Assembly (NCBI GenBank): GCA_002205965.3
Contig: NADL03000131.1
Span: forward strand, 160,735-224,734
Source: Kappaphycus alvarezii
Lineage: Eukaryota; Rhodophyta; Florideophyceae; Gigartinales; Solieriaceae
Length of the DNA stretch: 64,000 nt
Direction: 5' to 3'
Below the pieces are notes generated by a model. That model saw nothing but the letters and a program-made list of their open reading frames with translations, was not told where the DNA came from and ran no database searches. This document shows positions 11,130 to 64,000 of the stretch, piece after piece. Position 1 is the stretch's first letter. Every line of letters starts with the position of its first letter. The position numbers were made by a program, and so were the translations under genes.

Positions 11130-11199
11130 GATTACCAGAAAAGAAATCCCCTCGAATGGTTCCCTAAGACTGCTCAACTCGAATACCTCGGGTGCAACC

Positions 11200-11217: not shown

Positions 11218-11219
11218 AA

Positions 11220-20530: not shown

Positions 20531-20989
20531 ATGGAGAACTGTGTGCGCACACTGGCTGGGGGCGTCCTCGACCACGACATATTTCGAGAACTGCAGTTGC
20601 CCATGAAACCGATCACCGCAAGAAGCCATCACTGGGAATTGGACTCACTTCGGCGAAGTCAATTGCAGCTGCAGCCTTCCTCGCCTCCAGCGCAGCGTTC
20701 CAACAGGCTGTGTGCAGCCCTCCTCCCAGCGGCAATTACGGATCTCTCAACTTACCGAGACATCGTCGAGGCGCACCAGATTTGGTCCCTCTCTTGCTCC
20801 CAGTCCAGGATTATCCTTTAGTGCCTCTGCTCAAACAAAACACCATCACAGAAGACACTATCGGACGCCATCCACGAGCGGGTGCAAGAGGAGATCGATG
20901 TGGGCGACAATAGACGGCAGGCCTTCCGTGCCTCCATGGGGCTCCCGGCGCGAAAATTGGGTGTACTGCACCCCATCTCCGGGCCTTAA

Positions 20990-22050: not shown

Positions 22051-22063
22051 CTACTTCCCCTTT
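22051..22063 (-). other. Copia 1 polypurine tract
   Basis: The minus strand reads AAAGGGGAAGTAG directly before the 3' LTR, the expected plus-strand priming site. Confidence 0.65.
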
Positions 22064-24157
22064 GAAATATTGAACTAAATTTATCCTGTTGACTGAGATG
22101 AATCCCCGAGATAAAATATTACTCATATCCATAGGTATAGATCCATCAAATAAAAGGAGCTTGAGCATGTCAGATACAGGACTGTCCTTTTTCGTGAGCG
22201 GGTCGGAGGGATTAATTGAACAGGTATCCATAGCATTTTCTTGATTTTGTTCGTTTCGAAATTATATCGAATTAATTGAACATCCGCTCTAATAGATTTA
22301 TCTTCAGGCACACGACAAGTAGATAGAGACTGAATAGATCTTTTGAATCAAAAGCAACATGAATAGGAATATTGATATTTAGAAGTGTACTGTATGCTGC
22401 TGCAATAATTTTTCTTCCTCGATAGCTTCACCAGCAGCCAATATTTCACCAGATGCAATAGATTTAACAGGACGCCGAATAGATGTGAAAGCCAATAAAT
22501 TGTATGAAATATTGAATTACAATTTAAGGATCCAATAGCAACCCACCAATACATCCAAGTTGCGCATTTGTCGATCCGGCTGGTTTTCCTGCATCAAGAA
22601 AAAACAACAACTGATAAATTGAAATTTCCAGAAACTTCCGGGCGCCGATACGTGCTTGTAGAACCAAAAGATTTTAAATTCCGAAGCATAGAAGATTGGA
22701 TAGATAAATCACGAACCAATGGATTTGACCTTTTCTGTTGTAAATATCTTGCTGTAAAGGCAGACACTGGAGATGCAACCATACCCAAATAGACAATTGA
22801 TCCGTTTAACGAATTAAAGGCAATTTTTCAAATGAGTTCATTTCTTCATCAGGTTGTTTCGACGATTTCTTGATATTGAATGGGTTCCAGTCCATTTAGC
22901 TTATCATCAGCTGAGACATTAATTTTATAGTCATCAAACTGCATGATTTTAACTCCATTGAAATAAAAGATCCAGGACTATGTACGATTGTACCAAGCTT
23001 ATATACTTTCCCAAGATCTTGGATAAATTGCTTCTTAATATTTTTTTTGTCCAGTAATAAGTATATCATCGACCAATTTAACAACAAGCAGAATTAAGGA
23101 TCCCTTTTAAACTCATGAAAAATAATTGGGGTATATAAACGACTGATTTCAATCCGAGGTCAAAGAAAGTATTATCAGAGTGTATTTGCCATTTTGCATT
23201 CGCGTTGACTAACCCATATGAAGCAGACAGTAATAACCAGTAGAAGGATTTTTCAAAGCAGGAGGTCTCTAAACATCTCGTAATGCTGATCCAGATTGTA
23301 AAAATGCAGACTTCACATCAACCTTTGATAAATTCCATTTAAAAATTGTAGAAATTGATAAGAAGAATCTAATTGCCATCGGGAACAAGATTCCGAGTCA
23401 GTTCTCAAATTATTTTTCTCCTTGTCCTCATTTCCATGCGGAGCAATCGAGCCTTGCAATAATAATTTCCATTATCCAAAATTTTTATTTTGTATAAAAC
23501 GTGACTGGATATTACATTCGAGTCGGGAGGAATTTTTGAACATGAATTTTTGAACACGTAGTGAGAAAATTATTTTCTTCCGTATTGTACGCATTTGAAA
23601 TAATATGAGATGGAAGTCCAGATGCTTGATGAAGTAAAAAATTCTTTAGATCCAAACCTTTTATGATAAAAACTCAGATCTTTTTGTTCAGATGATTTCA
23701 ATTCCCGTTCCAGGTAACAACTCAATTTCATGCGCATCAATTCCATCGTTTTCATCAATAGGGATATGAATTAAATTTTCAGGGTGCAGGGACTAAGTTC
23801 AGATTCAATCGGAACATGTTCGAGAGATAATATGTTTTTAGATTCTGATAAATTTCCATCACTTTCTGATTCATTATATTTTTTCGACTCAGTATTCATA
23901 TTTGTGTTAAAATTACCATCATCAGAATGATCGTCAAAATTGTTTTCGCCCACATTTTTCGCTTCCGGTAATATTTGTTTCATCAGAAATATCTTCCACA
24001 GAATATTCAATAGACTGATTCAATAAATCATTTGCCTTTTGAATTTGGTATGCTAGTTCATTAGATGAAACGGAATGTCGGACATCTTCAATTGCAGCAT
24101 GTATAAATTTTCCATTGGATCCAGGTACTGTGACGATAAGAGATTTTTTGTCGAATT
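22064..24157 (-). pseudogene. Copia 1 reverse transcriptase and RNase H
   Basis: The reading is scattered over frames. The reverse-transcriptase active site is seen as VVKLVDDILITGQKK near 23045-23090, followed by IKKQFIQDLGKVYKLG (22990-23035). RNase H remains include IDKCATWMYWWVAIGSLN near 22535-22580, then RADVQLIRYNFETNKI near 22260-22300 and PSDPLTKKDSPVSDMLKLLL near 22160-22215. The last is the usual copia ending before the 3' LTR. Many stops make it inactive. A Ser/Asp/Glu-rich spacer (SDDGNFNTNM, SESDGNLSESK) lies at 23800-23960 between integrase and reverse transcriptase. Confidence 0.8.
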
Positions 24158-25090
24158 TCAATACTGGTTTGGGCGATGACCAAGATCCTTTTTCTGATTT
24201 GGTAGATGAATAAAAATTTCCACAATATCGCCAACATTAATTGGAATATCGGTCACAGACTTTGATTTTAGAATAAGATTTAATTTCCTCTTGGCTATTA
24301 GCTCATTATGAGCTTCTCTTAAATCATTTGGTAGACTTCGAGGACCAGAATTATCGATGGGTCGAGTGTGACCAGTGGCAAGCTCGTATGAAGAAACAAC
24401 ATCATTTCCATATAAATCATTCGATATTTGAAACATTCGAGCAATACGAACCGTATTACTTGCAGAAGAATCGGATATTTTTAAACGGATATAAATGTCT
24501 CTCAATATTTTATGTTTTGACTCAATAATTTTTGTTATGGCGGCGGGAACCAATAGGACAAAACGAAATTCCTCTTTCCTCAAGATAGCTTCTAAAATAT
24601 CATTGTCAAACGCCTGATCTCCCATTAAATTGTTAGGGTCCCAAAATGGTGTTAACCAGAGAGTCTCAATACAATAATGCAATTTTCCATCCTTAAAGAG
24701 GGCACTATTGAACCAGTTGAATACCTGGTAACTGAGTCCATAATGTGAAAAATATCCAAGTTTTCCACAAAAAAATGATCCACACAAACCAATTCATTAA
24801 ATCCGCGAGATATAGAGCTTAAAGATACTGCACGAGGATGAGATGGTTTTTTTGTGACATCACAAAATTTGCAGGAGTCAATTATGCTTGATAAATATTT
24901 TTTGCATTCATCGTCCCATATAAAATTTCTTTGTAACAATAGTTTTATATCATCATAATTTGAGTGACCACATACATGTTTGTGAACCTTATTAATTATT
25001 TTCTTCTTTTCAGCCCAAGATATATTTTTGATGTATTGATATTGTTGGAACAAATTGCTGATAGAAATGAGTTTTCAATAGGTTCGGATG
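24158..25090 (-). pseudogene. Copia 1 integrase
   Basis: The zinc-binding region lies on the minus strand at 24860-25000 as HKHVCGHSNYDDIKLLLQ and CKFCDVTKKPSHPRA. The core follows with LVCVDHFFVENL (first Asp), GDQAFDNDILEAI (second Asp) and IIESKHKILRDIYIRL (Glu, about 24500-24550). The C-terminal part has a long helical region (LREAHNELIAKRK) and VGDIVEIFIH. One frameshift separates the zinc region (24652-25053) from the core frame (24158-24787). ESKH in the third catalytic position is characteristic of the GalEa group as I know it. Confidence 0.88.
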
Positions 25091-25099
25091 ATTGTATAA

Positions 25100-25609
25100 A
25101 TATATTTCCGGGTACATAACAATGATGACCATGATCCACCAATGTTATAGAATCGATTGAATTATTTGCGGACTCGAACTCGATGCGATTGTCCGTCATA
25201 TGAATAATATTTGATTTTCTTGTGATATTTCTTCCAATAACCCATTGAGATGATCCACTGATTATTAGATGCCTTATTTTAACCTGATTTCCATTGTCTG
25301 AAATAGCTGATAAAAATATTGAACCGATCATTTTTCTTTTTTCGCTTGAGTGGTCGCCATTTCCGTATTGCCAGAAGGGCGTGTCCTTGATACATTCAGG
25401 AAGTTCATCAAGAATTCCATTCCATTCCGGTAAAATAAATTTCGAAAGTGCTCGTAATTCAACAATCCCATTCCACTATACGGTGCTCCATCATCAAGTA
25501 ACGGACCTGGGTATAACGTATTTGACGGAGAATCAAGCACCGTTTTTACCATATGAAATGTTACAGAACCAGAATCATTTTTGTCTTTGATATTTTCTGC
25601 ATTTCCCAT
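25100..25609 (-). pseudogene. Copia 1 protease
   Basis: The minus strand reads PGPLLDDGAPYSGMGLLNY near 25465-25525, the aspartic protease active site. After a shift it reads IRHLIISGSSQWVIGRNITR near 25220-25285, the second half of the domain. DDGA is used in place of the common DSGA or DTGA. The domain would process the copia polyprotein. Two frames are needed, so it is broken. Confidence 0.8.
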
Positions 25610-26477
25610 TCTAGATGATGAACCTTTATGATAATTTTTAGCACTCTTGCATTTATCTTTTTCATAGGCCCAATGGCCAATTTCTCCACATCGGTCACAA
25701 GTTGATTTTGCCTTGAGGCAGCAAAGTCTTCAGGAGATAATCTTTGCTTATTATTTTTCTTGAAATTTTTCTTTTCTCCGTATGAAATATTTGATTGACT
25801 TGAAGAGATATATTTTTGAGCATTTCCATATATTTGATTTGTATTTTTTGGTTTATCACATGCACGAATAATAGATGATATTTCTGAATATTTGATTAAT
25901 TCTAGGATTTTTCCTTTTTCCAAATCGGCTTCTTCATGCTTCGGAGAAGCAGCAGCCAAAATAGATACTCGCTGGTTTGAATCAATTTTGGAATTAGCCA
26001 GGAGCAAAAATGATACCAGTGCTTCAGGTAATTTCGAAGTACCAGTAGATGAATGAAATCGGGCAATTTGAGCATCAAACCGTGATTCAAAATTTTTGAA
26101 AGACTCATTATCACCACGAGTAGTGTGCAATAGATCTAAGAATTTTTGAAATGTATCTGATATAGATGATAGAGGATCCACCTTATGAATAGCGTTAGCA
26201 ATCGCTAATGCACCATTTTCAGACTGAATTTCTGTGTCTGGAATTTTCTTACAAATATCAAGAGCTCGTCCAAATAATTGTGATTGTAAGACAAGACCTT
26301 GTACTGCCTTAGGAACCTTATTAGAATTTGATGCTGGTAATAAATCATGAACAGATTTCCATTTTGAACAGCATCAAAATATTTTTCTTGAGGTCCTTTA
26401 CCATCCGTCCAAGGAGCCGTGCGAAGATCCCATGAAAATTTCGGCCTTGAAGGAATTTCGGGGCGATCTGGGCCCAT
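25610..26477 (-). pseudogene. Copia 1 gag, start codon inside the primer-binding site
   Basis: The ATG at 26477-26475 lies within the primer-binding site. It opens MGPDRPEIPSRPKFSWDL, TAPWTDGKGPQEKYFDAVQ. A frameshift near 26360 follows. The main frame (25561-26181) carries DPLSSISDTFQKFLDLLH, SFKNFESRFDAQIARFHS and KLPEALVSFLLLANSKID, a copia-type capsid. A zinc knuckle CDRCGEIGHW...C lies in another frame near 25650-25700, with a longer last spacing (C-x2-C-x4-H-x7-C). The ATG assignment is supported by the protein-like stretch that follows at once. Upstream in the same frame the LTR is also open, so an earlier start is possible. Confidence 0.8.
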
Positions 26478-27869: not shown

Positions 27870-28480
27870 GAGGTAAGAGGATATGCCCGGGTGCACCAAT
27901 CATGGGGCTTTGTAAGGATTTTTTTAGTGATCTAGAATTTGCAGCTGCTGTGAACCACCCGAAGAATTATTTGTACACTGCATTGGATGTATGGATATTT
28001 TGGAAGAGTTTTTTGGCTCTGATCTCGGGGACTAGGACTGAGACAAGTGAATCTAGATATATATCCTGCCAATATCTGCTATTAGTCTTTCTCGATCACA
28101 TGAATCCATTTGATGCATTCTTCCATACTTCTTATATTCGTTCGAGACTTTAGGGTTATCCAAAAAGTGTATATAAACTGCGTAAACTGCTTCCTCCTGT
28201 GGAGGTCAAACAAGTTGGCAAACAAATTCAAGTCAAGTCCGAGTAGATAGAAATTTTAAAGTCAGCTTCAGACCCAAGAAAAATTTTTCTTATGCTGATC
28301 ACGGGGCATCAGTGGTATACACTGTCCTCTTTATCCTTTTTTGTAGCCATCTTGACTGTAACCTTTATCCACCTCTTTCTATTCGCTCAGCTATACCAAA
28401 AAAGCCTTTTTGTCTCTTGAGGCACCCTTTTTTGGTAATTGGTTCCAGGTATCTCTTATCCCGACAATTTACCCTTATCA
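27870..28480 (+). repeat. LTR D, old and 5'-truncated
   Basis: It shows the end of the U3 frame (ALDVWIFWKSFLALIS, about 27978-28022), the TATA (GTGTATATAAACTGC near 28160), the R/U5 region and the terminus CCGACAATTTACCCTTATCA at 28461-28480. It has many substitutions relative to the gypsy 2 LTR. The left edge is approximate. Confidence 0.75.
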
Positions 28481-28489: not shown

Positions 28490-29690
28490 TTCAAAACTAT
28501 CGCCCTCCATTATTGAGTAAAAAACTGCAATCGTTTCCCCTTATGAATTCAAATTCACTGTTCGACTCTATTTTCTATTTTATGTTTAGGCTGCGACATT
28601 ACCTCGCTCTTTTATTTCACAAAAAGCTATTAAATGTTTTCAAAACATGTTCCTATTTAAAGATCGATATCAACATTGTTGAAACGGCACCCTTGCTAGC
28701 GACCCCACCATCTGCCTACTCCCGTTTTGCCCTCAAAATGAACATTGCCCCCCGTCAATCACCATCGTCAAAGCATCCAGAACCACCGTTCCTCCACGTC
28801 TTGGCCTTGATCGCCAATGGGCCAACAAAATACGAAGATAATCGTAAAGGGATGGACCTGGACCTCCTTCTGGAGTGGGTCTGCCGTTACTGTCTCGATG
28901 AGGCAGAGGAAGAGGAGGCAGAAGAGGAAGTAGAGGTTGACGATGCATAGGCAGTAGAGGACTTTGAGGAGCAGAAAAAAATCTGAGGCGAATGTGCATG
29001 GATCGGAAGATGAGAAAAATGGGTGGACCAATGGGAGCAACTGGTGCAGAATCGTGGAGGATCTGCTGTCGAGGATGAAGTGGATATGAATGTAGTTATC
29101 TTTATCTTGGACTTCTCTGTTGGAAATGAGGCGAAGGTTGAGGGTAATGAGGATGGGTTGGATAAGGCTTCATATCTCTGAGTAGTATATGTATCATTTG
29201 GACCGTTCGGCGGAATTTCTAGGGATTGCATTGGAATTATTGATATCTTGGAGGAATTGTTTGGCTCTGATCTCGAAGGATAAGCTCTTTAGGACTAGAT
29301 GAATGTATTTATCGTCATAGTATCTACATTTAGTTTTTCATGCCCAAAGCTTCCCATTAATAGATTTTATGGGACTTAGTACGTTTGTTTGATATTATTG
29401 TACGACCACCCCAAAAATTTCATGCAAGACGATTAATATGCTTCTCGTAGGAGGGGAAAGGTAGCTAGGAGAAAATTTTAATTACGGGCGGAAGTAATGC
29501 AGAAGTTAAAAGGGAACTTTTGCCCTGAGGGACATTTATTTAACTCTATTCTCTGAACATAGATGATAGGCCCTGTCCCTTCTATACTTGCTTGCATCCT
29601 CCTGGTCCCCCATCTTTATTCATCTTTTATCATTCCAACAACCATACTCCGCTGGCACTCTTGTCGCTTGCAACGCTTTTGCCTTAGGAT
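28490..29690 (+). repeat. LTR E, old
   Basis: This LTR directly follows LTR D. It contains a divergent U3 gene at 28738-29283 and a degenerate R/U5 ending near CTTGTCGCTTGCAACGC (29664-29680). Edges are approximate, and no target duplication was found. Confidence 0.6.
28738..29283 (+). pseudogene. U3-encoded acidic protein, divergent copy in LTR E
   Basis: The ATG at 28738 opens MNIAPRQSPSSKHP, LHVLALIANGPTKYEDN and LLLEWVCRYCLDEAEEEEAE, stopping at 28950 in the acidic tract. After frame changes the tail is CIGIIDILEELFGSDLEG with TAA at 29281-29283. The residues differ widely from the 62965-63546 copy, yet the order holds: basic N-terminus, PT/PN-D block, helix ending in EAEE, acidic tract, LEELFGSDL. 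Conservation of protein pattern over such DNA divergence argues that the gene was once under selection. Confidence 0.65.
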
Positions 29691-39699: not shown

Positions 39700-40860
39700 G
39701 CATCGAAGGGTAGCTATTTAATATATAAGAGTTAATTATACAATTGATGCTCAGTGCCTTACGTAGAAGTACTTCGTAGGTAAAAAGCTGACTTTCAAAT
39801 TCTCAACTATTTGTTTCGGTACTTGAAGTTTTCTGCAACCTTGAATCTTCTCTCCTACATATAATGATTAAATCAGTTCATATGGACTTTTCACTTAACC
39901 CTAATGTATTAAAAACACACTAAATTCCATAAAATGATTAAACGGAAATTTGAGGTGCAGCGAAAATGATAAAGGAGGTATTATCAGGATAAATATACAT
40001 CTACTCCTCCCAACATTCATTCTCGAGATAAGAGCCAAAAAAATCTTCCAAAATATTCATACCTCCAATGAAGTTCCTATAACTTTTTCGGTTGTCCCAG
40101 AATGATAGTTAACTCCCTCTTCCATGTCAAGGTCTTGCAACATCTCGTTAAGCCCTCAGTCTCCGCTTAATCCTCAAGATATAAGTCCAAGATAAACTTC
40201 GCGACCAATCTCTCCCTTTCTTCTCATACAACAGCTCCTCACGGTTGTACACGTATGGATCCATAGCTGGACTCAGTCCTTCTCACGTTCCCATCCCTCA
40301 ACATTCGTCTAATCATCGTCGGCTTCCTCTTTCTCTCTCTGCTTTCTCTGCCTCTTTTATAAATCAACAATAAAACTAATCCCGAACGAGATCCCGATCC
40401 ATACTTCTGCAGTAATCTTCTTAGTCAGTCGGCCTGTTGGTCAACAAACTCAGACCATTGATGTATCAGCGAGCTCTGATTGATTTGGCGGTGCTAAGTG
40501 GAGTATATTATACAAGTTGGCGAAAATTTAAGAGAATGTGCGGGTGAGCCGATGGAGTGGCTTGTTGCACGGGTTTTGCTTCAACAAATTCCTGTTGCAC
40601 TTTTGATAGGAGAATTTAATCGAACTATCACAGCTTTGGTAGGCATGAAAAATGCACGGCGTTTTTCGTGTTTGATTTTGGATTTGGATGTGATGGGGTA
40701 AAATTAAAAACCTTCTTGATAAAATATCTGCCTGATTATATGTCTGCACTAAATTTAGAACATGGAACAGTCACGAGTAGTAATTTTTCTTTTCGAAAGG
40801 AGTGGATAAATTCTTCAAAAAAAAACAGAGAGTGGAGTCTTAAATTGAGATTTAATTTAT
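39700..40860 (-). repeat. LTR F, very old
   Basis: On the minus strand the end of a U3 frame is visible at 40020-40075 (MNILEDFFGSYLE), with the acidic part before it and R/U5-like sequence after it down to about 39740. Edges are approximate. It is recognised mainly by the conserved C-terminal motif. Confidence 0.5.
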
Positions 40861-41249: not shown

Positions 41250-42675
41250 CTATAGGAAAGCGGTCCTCTCCACACACTTTTGCCTTCTTCATCTCTGAAC
41301 TCTGATTTTTCAAAACAACACTTCCCACCTATTTTCCTTTAAAACAAAATCCTGAAACGAATTTTTCCCACCAATCCAAATTCCCTGTACAACTAAATTT
41401 CCATATTTTCTGTGAAGATTTTGGGCCTCCTTTTTCAAAAAAGAAATATTTCGATTCGTGATCCGCTTCGCCCTCCAAATTCAGTTCCGATATTTTGTCA
41501 AGCATATTTTTTGTTATTGACCTGATAGCATTCAAAATTGAAGCTGCGTCATTACCTTGGATTTTGTATTTCGTCCAAGGTCGTGAAACTTTTCGAAGAC
41601 GTCGCCATATTTAAAGTTCGACATCCACTTGTTTGAGTCAAAAACCCCGCAATAAACCACCCCAGCGGCTGACCCCCCTTTTTGCTCTCAACATGACCGA
41701 TCTCCGCCAGTCCGTCACCATCGCCAAGTCATCTCGAGTCCAACGCCCCCTAAACGCTCTGGTCTTGATCGACAATGAACCAAACGACTATGATTATTAT
41801 TGTAGAAGAATGAACCAGGAGGGCTTACGGGAGTGGCTCCGCCGGCACTGCTTAGAGGAGGCAGAGGAGGAGGTAAAGGAAGAGGATAGTGAAGAGAAGG
41901 CAGAACAGGAGGAGTTTGAGACTGAGGTAGAAAGATCGGAAGGTGAGGAGGAATGGGTGGAACCATGGAGGCCACTAGTGCACAACGGTGAGGGAGCTGA
42001 TGTGGAGGACGGAGGAGGAAGTGAGAAAGCAATATTTGTTTCTGACTCTTTTGAAAATGGTGAAGAGGAGGTTAAGTATTTTGATGAAGGATTGGAGGAG
42101 CTAGATATGTCTGAGCGGACTATTTATCATGCTGGACCTTTCCCTGGGATTTGTAGGGAATGCGTTGGATGTATGGAGTTTTTGGAGGATGTTTTGGCTC
42201 TGATCTCGAGGACTACGATTGGGAGGGGTAAATCTAGATATTTATCCTGATAGTATCGGCTGTTTGTATTTCTCGTTCAGTCGATTCCATATAATGCATT
42301 TTGTGGTACTTAATATGTTTATTTCAGACTTTTCTAGGTTTATAGGGTTATCCAAAAATTCTATATAAGCTGAATAAACTGTTACCTCTTGTGGAGTTCA
42401 AAAAAGTTTGCAGACAACTTCAACTCAAGCCCCAAGTAGTTAGGAAGTTGAGAGTCAACTTTAGACCCAAGAAAAGTTTTTTTTACGCTGATCACAGTGC
42501 ATAAGAGGTATACCTTGCCCCTTCTATACTCGCTTGTATCCCTTTCAACTGTCTTCCTTACCAATCTTTCTTTGTTCGCTCAACTATACCATTTTAGCAC
42601 TTTTGTAGTTAGCGACACCTCCCTCCTGGGGTAATTGGTCTTTGGCATCTCTTCTCCCGACGATTTACCCCTATC
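41250..42675 (+). repeat. LTR G, divergent subfamily with a nearly intact U3 gene
   Basis: It holds a TATTTAAA box at about 41608-41615, the U3 gene at 41693-42250, the TATA TCTATATAAG near 42361, and the terminus CGACGATTTACCCCTATCG at 42658-42675. It lies in a minus-strand LINE fragment (42676 onward). The left edge is uncertain. Confidence 0.75.
41693..42250 (+). CDS. U3-encoded acidic protein, open 185-residue copy
   Basis: A complete frame from ATG to TGA with TATTTAAA about 80 bp upstream. N-terminus MTDLRQSVTIAKSSR, then LNALVLIDNEPNDYDYYCRR and GLREWLRRHCLEEAEEEVKE. A long Glu-rich tract follows (about residues 65-105). The C-terminal region reads FPGICRECVGCMEFLEDVLA. The tail differs from LEELFGSDL because of small changes. 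Similarity to the gypsy 2 protein is confined to the pattern of blocks, yet the frame is open. Not recognised; possibly nuclear or nucleic-acid-associated judging by its acidic middle and basic N-terminus (inference). Confidence 0.7.
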   Translation: MTDLRQSVTIAKSSRVQRPLNALVLIDNEPNDYDYYCRRMNQEGLREWLRRHCLEEAEEEVKEEDSEEKAEQEEFETEVERSEGEEEWVEPWRPLVHNGEGADVEDGGGSEKAIFVSDSFENGEEEVKYFDEGLEELDMSERTIYHAGPFPGICRECVGCMEFLEDVLALISRTTIGRGKSRYLS

Positions 42676-48643: not shown

Positions 48644-50158
48644 TGTAAGACAGGAAATGGTACTCCCTCGTTTAATACAGGAAATGATCCTCCCAAAGGG
48701 ACCAATAATTTACAACGATCCCGCCCCTGGCTCCGCTTACCTTCCTTTCCAAATTTGTCTACCATCCTCCCTAGATATTATTAATACTATATCCTCTCCT
48801 CGAAATCAGCGTTCTACGTCTTTTTTATCTACATTCTTCATCAAATTCACTCCTTATGCAGAAATTTCACGCAAATTCGCTATTGCGATTTCGATTTTAG
48901 CTTTTTAGTGCCAACTCCAGTCCGCCTCTAAGGTGTACTTAAACCCATTTTACCCAACTTTTTTAATATCCACCAACCCGTACACACATTTCTCTCCCCC
49001 TTACACCCTCTATCCTTCATCCACAATCGCCCCACTCCATTCACAACCAATATGAACAACCTTCGCCCCTCCGCCTCCATCGCCAAAAATCGCCACCCCC
49101 GCCCCCTAAACTCCATTCCCCTACTTCCTTTCGGACCTACTGATCGTGATGAATATCTACACCGCCGAACCAAAAAGAAGGTGATCGAATTCGTGCGTCG
49201 CTTGTTTGTCGAGGACCAAGCGGAGGAGGTAGGTGAGGGGCAGGAGTCGGAAGTCGAGGAGTAAGCCGGGGAGACCTTCGAGTAGTGGGCAGCCCCGGAG
49301 TTTGTCTACGAGAATGAGGATGACGAGAAGGATGACGAGGAAGATGATGGGGATGATAAAGAGGAGGACGAGGAGGATGGGGGAGGGAGACAGAGAAAGT
49401 GTTGGAATGGTGGGACCGGGGCTGGACGGCAATGACTAAGTGGTGCCTACGCTGGAACCGGATGGGAGTATCTTTAGTGGTTTAGATATCTCCCAGGAGG
49501 AAATAGAGAGTTATGGGTCGTTCACAGATATTTGTGGGGACTGCTTGGGCAGCATGGATATTTTGGAAGAGTTGTTTGGGTCTGATCTAGAGAACACGAA
49601 ATAAGAGGACCAGATAGATTGTTCGTTTCCTTAATTATCATTTGTTTAGAGTATATCATCCACACAAAGTGTTTTTATGCAATTTGGTATCTTCTGTAGT
49701 TTTGTTCGGACTTCAGGGGTAGCCAAAAGTCTATATAAGTTAAGTGAACTGCTTCCTTATGGAGAGGTCAAGGAAGTTGGCAGAAAACTTCAAAAGAGAT
49801 ACTCCAGTAGTAACGAAGTTGGCAGTCATCTTCGGGCCCAAAACATATAAACGGCTCTCAAGCCTCGAAGCTAGGTGGAAGAGCCTCCCCGTTTAGAATT
49901 GTTGGGGATCCACCGGGCCCTCTTCAATTTCAGCCCATTGCATTTGCCTTGCAACGTACACGGAAGCAGATCTATTGTTCGCAAGGCGAAGGTACAGCCT
50001 GCCCCTTTCGGACAAAGTCGGTTTCCCTAGGTCTCTCGTCCGTATACAGCACATTTTGTTCCCCAAACTACCTTACCATGGCACTTTTGTCGCTCGCAAC
50101 ACCTTCGTTTTGGATAGTGGGCGTTGGATATCTCTCTTACGCCGACTTTCTGCTAAAA
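48644..50158 (+). repeat. Solo LTR H inside the gypsy 3 LTR
   Basis: A divergent member of the gypsy 2 LTR family, starting TGTAAGACAGG, flanked by ATATT at 48639-48643 and 50159-50163. The uninterrupted site is present in the gypsy 3 3' LTR near 43662. TATA TCTATATAAG is near 49730. The 3' end (GCCGACTTTCTGCTAAAA) is worn. Confidence 0.88.
49052..49602 (+). pseudogene. U3-encoded acidic protein, broken copy in LTR H
   Basis: The ATG at 49052 opens MNNLRPSASIAKNRHPRPLN, IPLLPFGPTDRDEYLHRR and KKKVIEFVRRLFVEDQAEEV, with a stop at 49262-49264. The acidic part (YENEDDEKDDEEDDGDD) and the tail (DCLGSMDILEELFGSDLEN near 49539-49595, then TAA at 49602) follow in other frames. A clear relative of the 62965-63546 protein. 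Confidence 0.8.
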
Positions 50159-50870: not shown

Positions 50871-51504
50871 GGACAAAGAGCTAAGCAGGTCTCCTAATAA
50901 GTAGTGTGGCACAAATTCGTCTAACGGGCTGGCTTAAAGCCTGCCACAGTGGCGTATGTCGGCTGCAATAAATGAAAACCCAGTACTTCCCCCATCTCAC
51001 TTTTTCCTAATTATGTGCAATAAACGTTGCATTCGACGAGATTTTGGATTCGCATCCAATCTGATAGGGGTAAATCGTCGGGAGAAGAGATATTCAGAAT
51101 TAACTACCCCAAGAAGGAGGTGTTGCAAGCGACAAAAGTGCTACCGTGGTATAGTTGAACGAACGAAAAGGAGTGGATAGGGAAGACAGTTGAATGGGCT
51201 ACAAGCAAGTATGGAAGGGGCAGGGTCTCCCACCTATGCTTAGTGACTAGGGTAAAATAAATGCTTCTTGGGTCTGAAGTTGACTCTCAACTTCTTAACT
51301 ATTTGGGACTGAGCTTGAAGCTGCCTGCCAACTTGCTTGACCTCTCCATGAGGAAGCGGTTTACTCAGCTTATATAGACTTTTGGCTACCCCTAAAGTCC
51401 GAACAAAAATACAGAAGGTACCAGGAAACGCGCAGAAACAATTTGTGCGGACGACATACTCTAAACAGAAGATACTTAAGGAACTAACAATCAATGAGGC
51501 CCTC

Positions 51505-52140
51505 TTATTTCCCATTCTCTAAATCAGATCCAAACAACTCCTCTAAAATATCCATGCTGTCCAAGCAGTCCCCACAAATATCTGCGAATGGCTCACAGCT
51601 CTCTATTCCCTCCTGGGAGATATCTAAACTACTAAAGATATCTCCATCCGGTCCCAGCGTCGGCACCACTTGATCCATACTCTCCAGTCCAGGCCCCACC
51701 AGTACAACACTTTCCATGCCCCCATTTCCCTCATCCAACTCTTCCTCGTCCTCGTCATCCTCCTCTTCCTCCTCTTCATCCTCATCCTCATCCTCATCCT
51801 CATCCTCCTCTTCATCCTCATCCTCATCCTCATCCTCATCCTCCTCTTCAACCTCATCCTCCCCGTTCTCCTCTTTATTAACCTCATAGACCAATCCAGG
51901 GGCTACCCACTCCTCAAAAGTCTCCCAGATCCCTCCTCGATGTCCCACTCCCGCCCTTACCTACCTCCTCCGCCTCATCCTCGATAAAGAGGCGACAACG
52001 AATTCGATGACCTTTTTCTTGGTTTGCCGGCGCAGGTAGTCCTCGCGGTCAGTAGGTCCGAAAGGGAGTAGGGGAATAGAGTTTAGGGGGCGGGGATGGT
52101 GATTTTTGGAAATGATTTTTGAGGGGCGTAGAGTGGTCAT
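51505..52140 (-). pseudogene. U3-encoded acidic protein, copy in solo LTR I
   Basis: Start MTTLRPSKIISKNHHPRPLN at 52140, then PFGPTDREDYLRRQTKKKVI and EFV, where two bases are missing near 51988. From 51948 the frame is open to 51505: WVAPGLVYEVNKEENG, then an Asp/Glu tract of about 50 residues encoded by (TCCTCA)-type repeats. It goes on to MDQVVPTLGPDGDIFSSLDI, ESCEPFADICGDCLDS and MDILEELFGSDLENGK. This copy gives the best reading of the middle and C-terminal regions. Confidence 0.8.
51735..51860. repeat. TCCTCA microsatellite in the U3 gene
   Basis: Repeated TCCTCA with TCCTCC interruptions, coding for Asp/Glu on the minus strand. Its length differs in every LTR copy. Confidence 0.85.
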
Positions 52141-52601
52141 TTTGGTAGGTTTGGGGGAATGGAGGTAATGGAGGGTGTTTCGGGTGTGTGTGGGGAGAAG
52201 GTGTGATTAGCAAAATGACCGGGGACGTTTAAACTTGGAATAAATGGGTTTAAATAGGCTCCCGGGGCAGGTTCTATAGATTAGAAATAGGTAAAATAAA
52301 TCTGCAAGGGATTTTTGTAGTAGTCCATTTGCGCCCTTTTTCTCAAAAAACGAATTTGGAGGAGGAGGTAAGCAAAAAGGGAAAAAGAACTTGATTCGGA
52401 TCGATTAAGAGGGGTAGATACAGTATAAAAATATCTAGATAAAATGGAAGTAAATTTGGAGAGGACCCGGTAATGATAAGCGAGGTTCAGGGAGGATGAG
52501 GAAGGACCGGAACTATAAGCAAATTTGGACAAGGAGAGGTAGTACAGTAAACTATAGGCCTGTAGATGACGGCGACAAAAAAATCTGCGCCTAACACAAT
52601 C

Positions 52602-53810: not shown

Positions 53811-55018
53811 TTATGCGGTATTCGCGGCCAGCTTCGATCAGAAGCAGAGGAAGCTTTCCATCTGTTGCAATTGCCCTTCTCGGATCGGGCCTGGCTTCAG
53901 GCCCCTCTCCCCTTCTCAATGGGCGGTTTAGGTCTCCTGCAAACTTCGGACATTCCCGAGGCTGCTTACGCAGCATCTCTGATTGATTCTTTTGGACTTT
54001 TCTACACTGCTGACTCTTTCCCACGACCGCCACCTGGCAGAGATCCCTCGGTCTCGGTCTGCCATCTCGCTCTTATTCTCCCGCCACACGCAGCTGTCTT
54101 CGTCGCTTACAGCTACGACACTTTTAGAGCGTTGCTAATCGCCGGTCCCCGGTGAAAGGCTCCAGTCCGCGATCACAACTGAACTCATGCTATCGAAGTC
54201 TGACAGGTTGTTCTTGTCTGCAGCAGCACCCGACCGAGCACGGCTCTCTCCGTGCCGACATCTCCTCCTCCTCTGTTTTCTCTTCGTTTCCTCGCCCCCA
54301 CCGCGGTACGTACATGTCCTCTTCTGCGTGTAAGTCGCTATGGCTCTTCGTCTCGACATCGTGCTATTCCTTGGATCTACTCGCTGTGCGGTCTGCTCCC
54401 CGCGCTCGGCCGACGTCGACCCCGTCTTAGATCCAAGCGGCCAACACTCGTTGACGTGCAAATACGAGGACGGAATGACTCGTCGACATCACGTCTTCAG
54501 CAACGTTCTTGCCCGCTTCTATAAGGAAGTTGGGATCGTCACCCTCGTCGAGCATCCGCTTCTCTCCCAAGTTCCCAACTCGTCTGGGCATTCGGAGTCC
54601 CCCGCATTACGAATTGACATTTACGTTCCCGCTGCCTATGGGCTTCACAGTACTGATATAGTTGTCGGCGTTACTGTTGCCCACCCCTCCGCTCGCCGCC
54701 ACATCTCGCCAAGCGCAGTTACCGCAGGCGCTGCCGCGACTCTCGCAGAGCGCGAGAAACATCGCCATTACGGCACTTACTTTCACCAAAACGATATCGT
54801 CCTCTCCCCCGCCGACATTGACTTCTATGGCGCCTTGGGCGACGATGGCAAGGTTTTTCTCCGCCGACTTCCTTTCTTCGCTGCTTCCCGTCGCGGTTCC
54901 TCCCCTCAACAGGAGCTTCGCGACTTCGTTACCAGTTTTGCGTTTGGTCTCCAAGTGATCCAGGCGCGACAGGTTTCCACCCGCCGCCCGTATTCGTTGT
55001 TAATTTCTGAATACCCTC
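53811..55018 (+). pseudogene. RLE-type LINE copy L6 with long endonuclease frame
   Basis: RQLRSEAEEAFHLLQLPFSD-like sequence begins near 53830. DRAWLQAPLPFSMGGLGLLQ and IPEAAYAASLIDSFGLFY follow to 54155. From 54340 to beyond 54960 one frame is open: IVLFLGSTRCAVCSPR, GQHSLTCKYEDGMTRRHHVF, VTLVEHPLLSQVP, then ALRIDIYVPAAYGLHSTDIV and VGVTVAHPSARRHISPSA. This is a C-x2-C...H-x3-C cluster plus endonuclease core. It ends ELRDFVTSFAFGLQVIQARQ and is cut by gypsy 2 at 55018. It is the best-preserved member of the L1/L2 family here. Confidence 0.8.
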
Positions 55019-56497
55019 TGATAGGGGTAAATCGTCGGGAGAAGAGATACTTAGAACCAACTACCCCAAGACGGAGGTGTTGCGAGCGACAAAAGTGCTA
55101 CCGTGGTATAGTTGAACAAATAAAAAGCAGTGTATATGGGAGAGAGTTGAGAGGGCTACAAGCAAGTATAAAAGGGGCAGCGTCTACCACTGATTCTCTG
55201 CGACTTGCTTAGGAAAAAGTTTTCTTGGGTTTGAAGTTGACTCTCAACTTCCTACTACTCGGAGCTTGACCTGAAGTTGTCTGCCAACTTGCTTGACCTC
55301 TCCATGAGGAAGCAGTTTACTCAGCTTATATAGACTTTTGGCTACCTGTAAAGTCCGAACAAAACTACAGAAGATACCAAGAAATGCATAAAAATACTTT
55401 GTGTGGACAATATGCTCTAAGCAAAAGATACTTAAGAAACTAACAATTAATTTGGTCCTCTTATTTCCCATTCTCTAAATCAGATCCAAACAACTCCTCT
55501 AAAATATCCATGCTGTCCAAGCAGTCCCCACAAATATCTGCGAATGGCTCACAGCTCTCTATTCCCCCTGGGAGATATCTAGATTACTAAATATATCTCC
55601 ATCCGGTTCCATCGTGGGCACAACTTGATCCATACTCTCCATTCCAGGCCCCACCAGTCCAACACTTTCCATTCCCCCTGTTCCCTCATCCCTCTCCTCC
55701 TCCTCCTCCTCCTTCTCCCCATCTCCTCTTCATCCTCTTCCTCATCCTCCTCATCCTCCTCATCCTCCTCTCCTTCTCCCGAGCCTCGTGCACTAGCTCA
55801 GGGGCTAACCATTCCTCGAAGGACTCCCCGCTCTCCTCCTCGACCTTCTCAGCCTCTCCCTCACTTACCTCCCTCGCTTCTTCTTCTATGAAGAGGCGGC
55901 GAACGAACTCGATGATTTGCTTCTTTGTTTGCCGCCGGATGTAGTCGTCGGCATCGGTTGGCCCGTAGGCGGCGAGACGAAGGCCATTGATGGGACGGGA
56001 AGGGCGGTTTTTGGAAATGGGGACAGAGGGGCGAAGGTTGTTCATTTTGATAGACGTCGGGGAACGGGAGGCAATGTAGGGTGTTTTGGGTGTGTGGGGG
56101 AGAGAGGTGATGAGTAAAATGATCGGGGCATTTGAACTTAGAATAAAGGTTTAAATAGGCTCCCGGGCAGGTTCTATAGATTAGGAATAGGTAAAATAAA
56201 TCTGCAAGGGATTTTGTAGTTGCATTTGCGCCCTTTTTCTCAAAAAAAACGAATTTGGAGGAGGAGGTAAGCAAAAAGGGAAAAAGAACTTGATTCGGGA
56301 TCGATTCAGAGGGGTAGATACAGTATAAAAATATCTAGATAAAATGGAAGTAAATTTGGGAGGACCGCGGTAATGATAAGCGAGGTTCAGGGAGGACGAG
56401 GAAGGACCGGAACTATAAGCAAATTTGGACAAGGAGAGGTAGTACAGTAAACTATAGGCCTGTAGATGACGGCGACAAAAAAAATCTGCGCCTAACA
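55019..56497 (-). repeat. Gypsy 2 3' LTR
   Basis: It starts TGTTAGGCGCAG and ends TTTACCCCTATCA in element orientation. In order it carries the TATA-like box (near 56148-56156), the U3 gene (55461-56045), the genomic-RNA TATA (near 55326-55333) and R/U5. Confidence 0.95.
55461..56045 (-). pseudogene. U3-encoded acidic protein, copy in gypsy 2 3' LTR
   Basis: Starting MNNLRPSVPISKNRPSRPIN at 56045, it is identical to the right-LTR copy through EEWLAPELVHEAREK. A frameshift in the acidic tract then turns Asp/Glu into Arg/Met runs. The tail (FADICGDCLDS, MDILEELFGSDLENGK) is intact in another frame, ending at 55461. Since this LTR is the 3' copy, its U3 would be part of the element's genomic RNA. 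Confidence 0.82.
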
Positions 56498-56533
56498 CCC
56501 CCCCGGACTTAGGTCGAACGTCCCGTCTCGTTC

Positions 56534-58793: not shown

Positions 58794-60190
58794 CTAGTCC
58801 ATCAAGGAATTTAATAAGTCCGTGAATATAAGCTTCGTACTCGTTATCGATCGGCACTTGAACTTCGGCAACTCCGACGATGTCTCGGAAGCTTTTTCAT
58901 TTGGAATCAATGGATCCCTCAAGCGGGATAGGTAATCGGCAGGCTGATTATTGCGTCCGGGCCTATACACAATTTCAAACCGATATTCTGCGAAAATGTC
59001 GAGCCATCGGGCCAAGCGGTGATGTACATCTTTCTTTTGGAATGCTGTCTTAAGTGCCTGGTGATCAGTTATCAAGACAAATTTCTCGAGTGATAAAAGG
59101 TAAACACGAAACTTTTTCAGTGCGAAGACGACAGCTAGCGCTTCTTTCTCGCAGACTGAGTATCTCTTTTCCGCATCATTCAGAGTGCGACTTGCGAATT
59201 GAACAGGGTGTAGTCTTCCGTTTTCGTCTTTTTGGGACAAAATGGCACCCAAAGACCGTTCTGAGGCATCTGTCTCCACAACGAATGGTCTCTTGAAATC
59301 TGGATACATGAGCACTGGGGGACACATAGCTTATCTTTAAGCTCCTCAAATGCAGTCTGCATTTCCTTGTTCCAGTAAAATTTTCCGTTCTTCGTAGTGC
59401 TGGCATGTAACGGTGCTGCAGTTTTGGCGAAATCTTTGATAAATCTTCTGTAATATGAGGCCAGTCCTAAGAAGCTTCGAACCTCCGTCTTTGAAGCGGG
59501 CCTGGGTGCCAACTTGATTTTTTTCGTTTTCTCTGGATCCACTTTAATTCCCTCTTGATCGACGATATGACCGAGTAATTGGATAGACGTTTTCGCAAAG
59601 AAGCATTTGCTTAACTTAATTTTCAGGCTGTACGCATCTATTTCTCCACCACAGTCTTGACATGCGATATGTGCTGATCCAAGGTTTTTGAGAATATCAC
59701 ACATCATCGATATAAACTCTTGCAAATGGAAGTCCTTTCAAAACCTCGTTCATCATTCTTTGGAATGTAGCTGGGGCATTCATGAGACCAAAAGGCATCA
59801 CTTCGAACCTGAATGTACCGGCTTTGCTGGTAAAAGTTGTTATTTCCTTACATTTTTCATCTAATGGAATCTGCCAATAACCAGTGTAAAGATCAATTGA
59901 GGTGAAGTATCTCCCGTCCTTCAAGTCCTCGAGGATCTCCTCCATGTTGGAATCGGAAATCGATCGGGTATCATTCTCTGGTTCAGTTGTCGGTAATCGA
60001 CGCAAAAGCAGTTTTCCATCTTCTTTGGTGCTACCACAACTGGAAATGACCATGGGGATGAAACTGGCCGAATAATATCATTTTCCAGCATACTTGTAAC
60101 ATTCTCTGAGATAAATTGGTCATATTTTGGCGGTTGACGTCTAGGCCTGTGGTAAATTGGTTGAGTATCGGTAAGTTCAAATGAGTGAGT
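58794..60190 (-). pseudogene. Gypsy 2 reverse transcriptase and RNase H
   Basis: VDYRQLNQRMIPDRFPIP, FTSIDLYTGYWQIPLDEK, FEVMPFGLMNAPATFQR and VYIDDV occur at 59697-60053. The connection region KVDPEKTKKIKL and FLGLASYYRRFIKDF lies at 59180-59640. RNase H is an open frame at 58794-59327 with VVETDASERSLGAILSQ, VLITDHQALKTAF and VYRPGRNNQPADYLSRL. The frame breaks just after YIDD, near 59700, by loss of one base. Confidence 0.92.
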
Positions 60191-61060
60191 GACCGGTACA
60201 CTTGCTTGTCTTAAATCTGATACACTCCATGCAATTACTTCGGAAGATGCTAACATGTCGGATATTTTCAGTGAGGCGGCGGCGGGAAGGTGCTGCACTT
60301 TTCCTTGGATTTCTGCCATTTGGCGCCCTTTTTCTTCTTGATTCTCAACCTCAATATTTTGAAGGACCTTTTCCGGCGTGCTCACATCTTCAGATATGGA
60401 ATCCGATATATTCCTGTTTTCCTTGCAATTGTAATCTTCTTTCATGCTCCGAATTCCGTCCTTTGATTCGATATTATCGCAAAAAGAAACACATTCAGGT
60501 GTCACACCTACCCTAGAATTCCAGTCTTCATCTGTTTCAAACCCAGAATCATAATCATCCCATGCCATGTTCAGTATCCCCGAGCGTACCCTTCTCCACT
60601 TCCGAAAGTGTTAGTTGGTTCGAAATCTTCGCTGTCATAGCTAGAAGTGAAATCTTCACTGTCCGTTTCTTTCAAATCTACCGGATGTGTGCTTTTGTCG
60701 AAATCCAGGGGCATCTTCACGGTTCTGCCGTCAACATTAACTGAAACGATTTGGTTGCCCAAGTCAATGCAGGTCCCTAGTCTTTCCATGGTAGGGCAGC
60801 CAATGATTGCATCGAAAGGGAGATCAGGCATGACAAGAAAGTCTAAATCAACTTTAGAGTCCCCAAAGAACACGGAAACCTTGTCAACAGTGCCCATGCA
60901 TTTTGATACGGTTCCATCCGCCACAGTTATTCTTCGAGTAGTTGGAATAATTTCAAGACCTAGATCTGTCACCAAAGTTTCTGAAATAAGGTTTGGAACA
61001 GCGCCCGAATCGAAAAGAGCTTGGGTTTGCATTCCCAATACTTTGACTGGTACTAGTTTA
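60191..61060 (-). pseudogene. Gypsy 2 protease and acidic spacer
   Basis: ALFDSGAVPNLISETLV (active site about 61005-61025), PTTRRITVADGTVSKC and LPFDAIIGCPTMERLG are in the same open frame as the gag C-terminus (60571-61848). The spacer with KETDSEDFTSSYDSEDFE runs on to the reverse transcriptase after a shift near 60570. Here gag and protease are fused in frame, which suggests a single gag-pol frame in the parent element. Confidence 0.85.
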
Positions 61061-62445
61061 AGACGTCTTGGTGCTGTCGAGGCCGATTGAAGAAACAGTT
61101 TCTTACCCTTAGCGGACTTATTAGACCTGATAATTTTTTTGAGTTCTTTCCTCGCGTCCTCTGCGTCGCCCCTCAAAAGTTGACCAAACGTTATCCCAGT
61201 TGGGGCTGATGCAAGCTCAGCCACCAAATTGTACTTCTTCACATATTCTAGTACGTCCTTTGGGATATTCTTAAATTTCTTACTCTTTTTCGTCTTCTTG
61301 GCCGGAGTGACTCCAACTCCTGGAACAACTTGATCAGACCTCTTGGTTCGAGGAGGTACAGGTGCTGGGATATGTTCCAGCATTCCATAATCTAGCCTAG
61401 GTTTCTTCGATAAAATGTTCCCTTCCCCATCCCTTTTTGTCACATTGACTTGACTGATTTCTTCAGCGATGGATACGTTACCGGCATCCGTCAACTTGTG
61501 ATCCTTTCTGTTTTGTAAGATTTTCATCTCTGGTCCTGACTCGCTCCTTGCGTCCGATAAATTTGCTTTTCTGTTGTCTTTAGACCAGCAGTTACTTTCA
61601 TGATGCCCATATCGACCGCACTTTCCACAACGAGTGTTTCTATGTGGATTATCAGGACACCTATTTGCAAAGTGTCCAGGCTTGTGACAGTAGGAACAGA
61701 CTTCTGCGGCCTTGGGGGCCCCAGACTGGTTCTTCTTAATGGTAAGAGTAAGGCTTTCCAACTGCGAGGTTATCATGTCAAGTCGATTATCGAATCGGGT
61801 TTCCAACCTTTCTTCCAAGTTTTTGACATCGCTCCTGACTGATTCCAATGCTGCTGCGCTAGTCGCTGGCCTTGATAATTCTTTTCAGGATGTACGATAG
61901 CAGATGTACGGGTTTCCCTCGTACCTCACTAGTGACTGAAACGTCTCCGAATTTTTGACAAATTCTACTATGGTACCCTTCAGTTCATTAAAAGTGTGAG
62001 GGCCCTTGATGAGGAGGAAATCGGAGAGCCGCTTATCCCCCATCGCCGCCTTACGCAGCATTCCGTACTTGGCTTGGGCGTTGAACCCAGCCTTTTCATA
62101 GAGATCACACAAGTATACCAATGAGCTTAACAAATCGTCGAAGTTGAGCCGGGCCTCTATGGCGGTACGAATCATCTCATCTGGTTCTACCTCCTTAGCA
62201 TATTCTTTCACAAGCCACTCACATACCTCACCGAAGTTACGCCCATTCCCGTTAAGAGACCACCCGTTGATAAACTTGGCCTTATATTTGTGCTTTGCGT
62301 CACCATGAAGATAGGCGAAGATACTTTCGGCCTTCTCTTCATCGCTCTTCTCACGCATCACAACGTTGACATATGTATAGAGAAACTCCTCAACGTCTTC
62401 ATTCTTGCCCCCTGTGAACGTTATACGAGCAGCGTTGAGATCCAT
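61061..62445 (-). pseudogene. Gypsy 2 gag
   Basis: Start MDLNAARITFTGGKNEDVEE at 62445, open to 61885 with FLYTYVNVVMREKSDEEKAE and FGEVCEWLVKEYAKEVEPDE. After a short break near 61900 the second frame (from 61848) holds the zinc knuckles CSYCHKPGHFANRC and CGKCGRYGHHESNC and the basic KKTKKSKKFKNIPKDVLEY. The start is chosen because the two copies agree from this Met, about 90 bp after the 5' LTR. Confidence 0.9.
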
Positions 62446-62514
62446 GATTACAGAAAAGAAATCCCCTCGAATGGTTCCCTAAGACTGCTCAACTCGAATA
62501 CCTCGGGTGCAACC

Positions 62515-62532
62515 CCCTCCACAAGAGTACCA
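62515..62532 (-). other. Gypsy 2 primer-binding site
   Basis: Same sequence and 2-base spacing as in gypsy 1 (TGGTACTCTTGTGGAGGG on the minus strand). tRNA not identified. Confidence 0.65.
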
Positions 62533-62837
62533 AATGATAGGGGTAAATCGTCGGGAGAAGAGATATTCAGAACCAACTACCCCAAGAAGGAGGTGTTGCA
62601 AGCGACAAAAGTGCTACCGTGGTATAGTTGAACAAATAAAAAGGAGTGTATATGGGAGAGAGTTGAGAGGGCTACAAGCAAGTATAAAAGGGGCAGGGTC
62701 TACCACTGATCTCTGCGACTGCTTAGGAAAAATTTTCTTGGGTTGAAGTTGACTCTCAACTTCCTACTACTCGGAGCTTGACCTGAAGTTGTCTGCCAAC
62801 TTGCTTGACCTCTCCATGAGGAAGCAGTTTACTCAGC

Positions 62838-62844
62838 TTATATA
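62838..62844 (-). promoter_or_regulatory. Gypsy 2 genomic-RNA TATA box
   Basis: The minus strand reads GTCTATATAAGCTGAG. It lies between the end of the U3 gene and the R/U5 part. Confidence 0.75.
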
Positions 62845-62964
62845 GACTTTTGGCTACCTAAAGTCCGAACAAAACTACAGAAGTACCAGGAAATGCATAA
62901 AAAACTTTGTGTGGACAATATACTCTAACAAAAGATACTTAAGAAACTAACAATAATGGTCCTC

Positions 62965-63546
62965 TTATTTCCCATTCTCTAAATCAGATCCAAACAACTC
63001 CTCTAAAATATCCATGCTGTCCAAGCAGTCCCCACAAATATCTGCGAATGGCTCACAGCTCTCTATTCCCCCTGGGAGATATCTAACTACTAAATATATC
63101 TCCATCCGGTTCCATCGTCGGCACACTTGATCCATACTCTCCATTCCAGGCCCCACCAGTCCAACACTTTCCATTCCCCCTGTTCCCTCATCCTCCTCCT
63201 CCTCCTCCTCCTCTCCTCCCCATCTCCTCTTCATCCTCTTCCTCATCCCCTCATCCTCCTCATCCTCCTCATCCTTCTCCCGAGCCTCGTGCACTAGCTC
63301 AGGGGCTAACCATTCCTCGAAGGACTCCCCGCTCTCCTCCTCGACCTTCTCAGCCTCTCCCTCACTTACCTCCCTCGCTTCTTCTTCTATGAAGAGGCGG
63401 CGAACGAACTCGATGATTTGCTTCTTTGTTTGCCGCCGGATGTAGTCGTCGGCATCGGTTGGCCCGTAGGCGGCGAGACGAAGGCCATTGATGGGACGGG
63501 AAGGGCGGTTTTTGGAAATGGGGACAGAGGGGCGAAGGTTGTTCAT
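62965..63546 (-). CDS. U3-encoded acidic protein, open copy (about 193 residues)
   Basis: Met at 63546, about 100 bp downstream of a TATTTAAA box; an in-frame upstream Met at 63627 is less likely, since other copies share only the inner one. N-terminal block MNNLRPSVPISKNRPSRPIN, then GPTDADDYIRRQTKKQIIEF and VRRLFIEEEAREV, predicted helical. The middle is acidic with EDEEDEG and a Glu run. The stretch CRRWNRMEIYLVV is out of frame relative to the 51505-52140 copy. C-terminus ESCEPFADICGDCLDS and MDILEELFGSDLENGK. No signal peptide or membrane segment is visible. The acidic/hydrophobic tail resembles a transcription-activation motif, but that is conjecture. It occupies the same place as MMTV sag or lentiviral nef: it can be expressed from the 3' LTR portion of the genomic RNA or from its own promoter. 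Confidence 0.82.
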   Translation of the reverse strand: MNNLRPSVPISKNRPSRPINGLRLAAYGPTDADDYIRRQTKKQIIEFVRRLFIEEEAREVSEGEAEKVEEESGESFEEWLAPELVHEAREKDEEDEEDEGMRKRMKRRWGGEEEEEEEDEGTGGMESVGLVGPGMESMDQVCRRWNRMEIYLVVRYLPGGIESCEPFADICGDCLDSMDILEELFGSDLENGK

Positions 63547-63648
63547 TTTGATAGACGTCGGGGAACGGGAGGTAGGGTGTTTTGGGTGTGTGGGGGAGAG
63601 AGGTGATGAGTAAAATGATCGGGGCATTTGGAACTTAGAATAAAGGGG

Positions 63649-63656
63649 TTTAAATA
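63649..63656 (-). promoter_or_regulatory. TATA-like box before the U3 gene
   Basis: CCTATTTAAACCCC on the minus strand, about 100 bp before the U3 ATG. The same box precedes the gene at 2788-2795 (LTR B), near 52248 (LTR I), near 56152 (gypsy 2 3' LTR), and as ATATTTAAAG near 41610 (LTR G). Confidence 0.6.
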
Positions 63657-64000
63657 GGCTCCCGGGCAGGTTCTATAGATTAGGAATAGGTAAAATAAAT
63701 CTGCAAGGGATTTTGTAGTATTGCATTTGCGCCCTTTTTCTCAAAAAAAACGAATTTGGAGGAGGAGGTAAGCAAAAAGGGAAAAAGAACTTGATTCGGG
63801 ATCGATTCAGAGGGGTAGATACAGTATAAAAATATCTAGATAAAATGGAAGTAAATTTGGGGAGGACCGCGGTAATGATAAGCGAGGTTCAGGGAGGACG
63901 AGGAAGGACCGGAACTATAAGCAAATTTGGACAAGGAGAGGTAGTACAGTAAACTATAGGCCTGTAGATGACGGCGACAAAAAAAATCTGCGCCTAACAC

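Follow-up and report, generated by a model that had tools for sequence, protein, structure and literature searches.

The lentiviral nef and spumaviral bel genes are accessory or regulatory genes that extend into the U3 part of an LTR, and the spumaviral Tas protein is a transactivator. They go no further than an overlap with the 3' LTR, and they are expressed within the viral gene set. What they have in common with the gene described here is the reach into U3, and no sequence similarity to its protein was found. In MMTV, the sag gene is a protein gene located mostly in U3, and a promoter within the U3 of the LTR has been described (PMC4667437). Going by the cited part of that paper, the likeness to the arrangement reported here is a protein gene in U3 combined with a promoter inside U3. 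However, MMTV is a vertebrate retrovirus, whereas the elements of the red alga Kappaphycus alvarezii are gypsy-type, hold the whole frame in U3 behind an upstream box of its own, and coexist with LTRs that have no gene. Sequence searches (E<=0.001 and E<=0.1) gave no homology of the U3 protein to the MMTV superantigen.

Cassandra TRIM elements are non-autonomous and carry a 5S rRNA-derived unit with its own promoter in the LTR (PMC10853983). The likeness is a gene-derived unit with its own promoter in an LTR; the difference, according to the cited part of the source, is that the unit is related to 5S rDNA and is not a protein gene. In the 64-kb window, by which we mean the whole stretch of DNA analysed, neither 5S rRNA nor any other Rfam family matched at the gathering score. 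In the crapaud element of Podospora anserina, LTR subfamilies have diverged in the 5' half of both LTRs (PMC10787394), as the U3 parts have here, but crapaud is fungal and the cited part of that paper mentions no gene in the LTR. The open-access literature searched yielded no Ty3/gypsy family whose U3 contains a complete selected gene. A protein gene in U3 is already known from MMTV sag; what appears to be new is such a gene in a gypsy-type family.

The window contains two minus-strand gypsy-type elements, gypsy 1 and gypsy 2. Their internal regions are collinear, with 195 substitutions and 25 indel events in 6024 aligned bases, and taken together they show the Ty3/gypsy domain order (protease, RT, RNase H, integrase). 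The hallmarks of LTR retrotransposons (TG...CA LTRs, PBS, PPT, target duplication) are found, the outer flank of gypsy 2 lying beyond the contig end. The gypsy 2 5' LTR is followed by the PBS-like TTTGGTACTC. For the integrase frame, the top-scoring match with an organism name is from Chondrus crispus, 41%. The features of the two elements are:

4460-11938, minus strand, gypsy 1, complete element, target duplication CAACC
4460-5178 and 11220-11938, minus strand, gypsy 1 LTRs, 719 bp, without the U3 gene
5212-7305, minus strand, integrase frame of gypsy 1
7856-8734, minus strand, RT frame of gypsy 1
55019-56497, minus strand, gypsy 2 3' LTR (copy B), with 18 substitutions and 18 indel events relative to copy A
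56498-56517, minus strand, G-rich polypurine tract (PPT) preceding the gypsy 2 3' LTR
58794-59327, minus strand, RT-RNaseH frame of gypsy 2
60571-61848, minus strand, aspartyl protease frame of gypsy 2 (the gypsy 1 counterpart, 9123-9656, is below the cut-off)
62511-62534, minus strand, PBS-like sequence TTTGGTACTCTTGTGGAGG, directly after the gypsy 2 5' LTR
62535-63999, minus strand, gypsy 2 5' LTR (copy A), TGTTAGG...CCTATCA, at the contig end
62838-62844, minus strand, TATATAA, genomic-RNA promoter of copy A
62965-63546, minus strand, U3 gene of copy A, open over 193 codons (ATG at 63546, stop at 62967-62965); compared with open copies elsewhere it carries frameshifts that cancel out
63649-63656, minus strand, TATTTAAA box of copy A, 110 bases upstream of the U3 gene start

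Around these elements a repeat, with copies 79-86% alike, is found beside the gypsy 2 LTR (54608-55018), just outside gypsy 1 (11968-12376) and beside an LTR fragment near 1643 (1644-1989). The stretch 18000-20600 is GC-rich (0.565 at 18001-20000) and has several long frames on both strands, five of which were tested and gave no Pfam match; near it, 22000-26000 is AT-rich, with a GC content of ~0.34.

In element order the gypsy 2 LTR thus reads TATTTAAA box, 193-codon frame, genomic-RNA TATA and R/U5. The preliminary description had placed the box, the ATG, the stop and the TATATAA exactly where we find them. Copy A is nevertheless not clean: set against open copies, its frame is out of register at about residues 100-115 and again at 141-158, and it returns by chance. 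When the R/U5 of copy A was searched, the other 39 copies among the matches listed were only 96-97% identical, and nearly all of them spanned a few bases more. The window ends at 64000 with the contig itself (C130:224734), and the LTR shows several small deletions relative to other copies among the matches listed; because of this position and these deletions, base-level claims on copy A need care. The cancelling frameshifts and the contig-end location rule out copy A as an intact gene. Judged by these alignments, its open frame is in part luck; the U3 gene itself is not.

Nor is the gene tied to the gypsy 2 type of LTR. Copy A included, the window holds ten copies or remnants of it, and one of the nine others represents a diverged lineage:

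1016-1194, plus strand, copy E, C-terminal remnant
2903-3486, plus strand, copy C, within an LTR copy at ~2461-3925
27931-28032, plus strand, copy M, C-terminal remnant
28738-29280, plus strand, copy N, decayed, TATTTAAA at 28654
40000-40504, minus strand, copy J, decayed
41693-42238, plus strand, copy K, diverged, largely open, TATTTAAA at 41608, shared R/U5 at ~42234-42675
49052-49604, plus strand, copy F, broken
51062-52596, minus strand, solo LTR (copy D) with a U3 gene copy, 5-bp target duplication GATTG on both sides
51505-52140, minus strand, U3 gene of copy D, frameshift after codon 48, C-terminal part in frame
55461-56045, minus strand, U3 gene of copy B, first 62 codons the same as in copy A, frame broken in the acidic tract

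The lineage of copy K is diverged, at ~30-42% identity.

Searches of the 336 Mb genome gave at least 156 matches with the frame of copy A (150 of 10,368 candidates scored) and at least 152 with copy K, 41693-42238 (150 of 6,755 candidates scored). With the open copy L064 (150 of 10,938 candidates scored) at least 135 full or nearly full-length matches were obtained, at least 104 of them without an in-frame stop. All these counts are lower bounds from the matches listed, in which well-preserved copies are favoured. Among 60 loci from the copy A and copy K searches, 27 stay open for 160 codons or more when read from the expected start.

We classed 54 loci by their place in an element, some of them being one LTR fetched twice: 13 lie in a 5' LTR (plus one for which the start was not found), 16 in a 3' LTR (the far end not being found for six), four in both (tandem), three in a solo LTR with target duplication and 11 in neither, while six were not classifiable. 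Two of the solo LTRs with target duplication are open (L007, L011) and one has stops (L016). Three LTR pairs have a matching 5-bp target duplication, a PBS and a PPT: L063/L064 (GATTT), L066/L065 (GATAT) and L076/L077 (GTTCC). The U3 frame is open in both LTRs of the last two pairs and only in L064 of the first. Over 1,487-1,539 aligned columns the paired LTRs differ by 7, 6 and 3 mismatches, respectively, plus indels, and these few mismatches indicate that the three pairs are young.

On one contig three LTR gene copies follow each other in a single orientation ~7.6 kb apart (G000:C834:510205-525955), and on another four copies, also in a single orientation, are ~10.37 kb apart (G000:C782:16803-48363). 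This spacing suggests tandem LTR-internal-LTR arrays. The genome also gave three phycobilisome-family matches above the cut-off, one closest to the C-phycocyanin beta chain in PDB. Like the Chondrus crispus match of the integrase, they fit a red-algal genome, although the phycobilisome matches may also stem from cyanobacterial contamination. Two loci, L101 and L102, are phycobilisome-like gene fragments on large contigs, each in an open frame; they may be a nuclear gene, an organelle insertion or contamination.

To assess coding, we used a phase test that works without intact frames. It was applied to six pairs of diverged copies, picked as sister-like, over 48-61 codons at the N-terminus. Substitutions at codon positions 1, 2 and 3 number 71, 77 and 126 (total 274, p=9.4e-6), and the compared stretches contain no in-frame stops. 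The in-frame dN/dS of the six pairs is 0.27, 0.19, 0.75, 0.38, 0.33 and 0.45, the outlier of 0.75 being copy K against L047; the two shifted frames of the same pairs give 0.44-5.82. Between L003, which is of the A type, and L058, of the 168-aa type, the N part gives a dN of 0.32 and a dS of 1.19, and the C part 0.53 and 2.43. In these two copies each of the remaining two sense frames has 6-18 stops. Between old lineages dN/dS is mostly 0.2-0.45, so the ratio below 1 that the preliminary description had proposed as a mark of a protein is found between diverged lineages, mostly well below 1. A ratio near 1 in young copies had been named as evidence against a protein. For 21 A-type copies, among them L001 and L019 with frameshifts, pooled pN/pS comes to 0.54 in the N part and 0.73 in the C part, which is not cleanly near 1 and is expected when decaying copies are mixed with constrained ones. 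As in MMTV sag, a selected protein-coding frame is thus found inside U3, and these comparisons leave us with very little doubt that it is a real selected protein gene.

Intactness was examined in a sample independent of the gene: 40 LTRs that were picked up solely through the non-coding DNA upstream of it. From the first 22 of these, 20 were fetched, leaving out copy A and one already listed with stops. None of the 20, which are close relatives of copy A, has a fully open frame. Rates were computed for 17 of these LTRs against L097, with copy A, L096 and L099 dropped, the latter two because they carry other gene types. Per kb, substitutions and indels are 27.7 and 21.0 in the leader, 2.7 and 7.7 in the N part, 65.7 and 15.5 in the acidic tract, 3.9 and 4.4 in the C part, and 7.4 and 5.0 in the 3' non-coding part. 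Since indels in the N part (7.7/kb) are not rarer than in the 3' non-coding part (5.0/kb), there is no sign of frame keeping among those 17 copies. The excess of indels over substitutions in both coding parts looks like assembly error or slippage, from which decay is indistinguishable here. As this excess is what such errors would produce, we rejected the 0 of 20 as a refutation of the gene. For the younger type, 40 LTRs were likewise found by upstream DNA; at least 11 are among the gene matches listed for the L064 query, eight of them, the query included, without a stop.

Of 60 fetched loci, 42 have the TATTTAAA box at a distance of 40-200 bases upstream, as do six of eight window copies; these are raw counts over related loci. 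Where A-type and 168-aa-type loci have the box, it nearly always stands 106-118 bases before the start, and in most K-type loci with a box the distance is ~80-90 bases. By blastn the U3 of copy K does not align to that of copy A, and the box is thus also present in lineages whose U3 is not alignable to the A type. The genomic-RNA TATA and its neighbourhood are common to gene-bearing and gene-free LTRs, several K-type loci having no exact match in the stretch examined. The sequence therefore supports the earlier claim that U3 of a Ty3/gypsy-type element contains a protein gene preceded by a TATA-like box of its own, distinct from the TATA of the genomic RNA, and a dedicated U3 promoter is likely. 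With box, frame, genomic-RNA TATA and R/U5 in one LTR, the parts of a complete expression unit are together, and a solo LTR retains them.

The LTRs are mosaic. Identity between L003 and L058 is 0.94-0.98 upstream of the leader (four windows), falls to ~0.4-0.8 within the gene and rises to 0.77-0.97 on approaching R/U5. Against copy D, L003 has low identity (0.60-0.79) only in the leader and over the N-terminal half of the frame. Two LTRs of the gene-independent sample, L096 and L099, combine the shared upstream segment with other gene types. The simplest reading would be that gene lineages have been swapped between conserved promoter and R/U5 segments, as an exchange of old lineages. Solo LTRs had been expected to carry the gene, as they do, and to let it spread and diverge without the element; on the latter point the alignments instead reveal swapping of gene lineages between LTRs.

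The LTR of gypsy 1 is 92% identical to L058/L059 from its base 290 to the LTR end. The match begins at base 2012 of L058, five bases past the end of the stop codon (frame 1501-2007). Bases 1-289 are unrelated to the U3 gene by blastn, and no sense frame in the LTR exceeds 40 codons when counted from a Met. In the genome search with the gypsy 1 U3, the best 40 of 1,054 candidates are all 100% identical over 339 bp, which indicates a recent spread of the gene-free type. The abundance of these LTRs also means that the U3 gene is dispensable in cis. Absence of the frame from a wider set of LTRs had been put forward as evidence against the gene; a gene-free type does exist, yet it stands beside the gene-bearing ones and does not cleanly amount to such an absence.

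The open copies encode 168 (L058 type) to 202 residues (L061), with a pI of ~4.05 in the three computed. The N-terminal 60 residues have a pI of 10.1 in the A type (basic) and 5.8 in L058, the C-terminal 60 are acidic (4.1), and an acidic linker joins the two parts. The gene has a GAG/GAT tract of variable length that is stop-poor. Shared motifs are the N-terminal LRPS...GPTDxDDY..RR, a Cys-x-x-Cys and the C-terminal MDILEELFGSDLE; they are altered in the K lineage. Among 5.8 billion proteins there are no relatives of the copy A protein at E<=0.001 and none of 13 copies at E<=0.1. The PDB gave a single match by sequence (E 0.5), Pfam none for the U3 frames of the window and scattered weak ones for single members (best E 0.0067), and the viral contigs no relative. 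The two AlphaFold models, the second from a single sequence without the first Met, have a mean pLDDT of 44 and 52 and are too poor to interpret or to serve as queries in a structure search. L058 contains VIVISDSSD at residues ~102-110, which we take to resemble a SUMO-interaction motif; it is missing from aligned A-type copies. An acidic, mostly disordered (predicted) protein with a basic N-terminus would suit a transcription regulator, judging from composition.

We regard the U3 gene as close to proven; its predicted function we infer. A short mRNA would run from the upstream TATTTAAA box to the poly(A) site of the LTR itself. The protein would act in trans as a regulator of the elements, most likely by activating LTR transcription in a way that resembles the retroviral transactivators, without kinship to them, a role predicted from composition alone. 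Gene lineages would be exchanged between LTRs, probably by template switching during reverse transcription, and gene-free LTRs such as those of gypsy 1 may depend on the product of gene-bearing ones. For the gene and the LTR architecture together with a regulatory role we give a rough probability of 0.6. A regulatory accessory protein of some kind is the function that we favour with modest confidence, and a transcription activator in particular is a tentative proposal.

The protein could instead be an accessory factor other than an activator, for instance a suppressor of host silencing, a factor in copy-number or superinfection control, or a co-factor of integration. A small, acidic, mostly disordered (predicted), fast-evolving protein without relatives fits such a factor, as do the SUMO-interaction-like VIVISDSSD that we presume in the 168-aa type and the dispensability in cis, which would be expected of trans-acting or self-limiting factors. 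The evidence singles out no one of these roles, and self-restriction fits poorly with the many young gene-bearing copies; we consider this explanation unlikely, though a serious one. That the frame is a passenger, whether a host gene that was captured or a small mobile element of unrelated origin sitting inside the LTR, would account for gene-free LTRs on nearly the same element and for gypsy 1 homology that starts five bases past the stop codon. It is improbable given purifying selection over old divergence inside LTRs and the lack of a relative among 5.8 billion proteins.

Finally, the frame might be open by accident, owing to an acidic microsatellite with few stops inside a regulatory U3, with no protein made. 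The GAG/GAT tract is stop-poor and variable in length, copy A is open only through cancelling shifts, and its close copies are fully open in 0 of 20 cases. The third-position excess and the low dN/dS are, however, found in the N- and C-terminal parts, outside the tract; L003 and L058 have 6-18 stops in each of their other two sense frames, and open copies make up at least 104 of at least 135 listed. An accident is therefore highly improbable.

In its full form, the preferred reading of a gene with a regulatory role describes an LTR superfamily in one eukaryote as a two-promoter unit that would encode its own trans-acting regulator, with solo LTRs as working genes, the gene as a traded cassette and gene-free LTRs driven by gene-bearing ones; this whole picture is speculative and, taken together, rather doubtful. 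LTRs are usually regarded as non-coding control sequence, and here each of them, solo LTRs included, can double as a protein gene. With gene-bearing and gene-free LTRs side by side around almost identical internal regions, the benefit of an LTR-encoded protein becomes directly testable in one genome. As solo LTRs keep the U3 gene, the usual route of retrotransposon decay would multiply genes, which may regulate the remaining copies.
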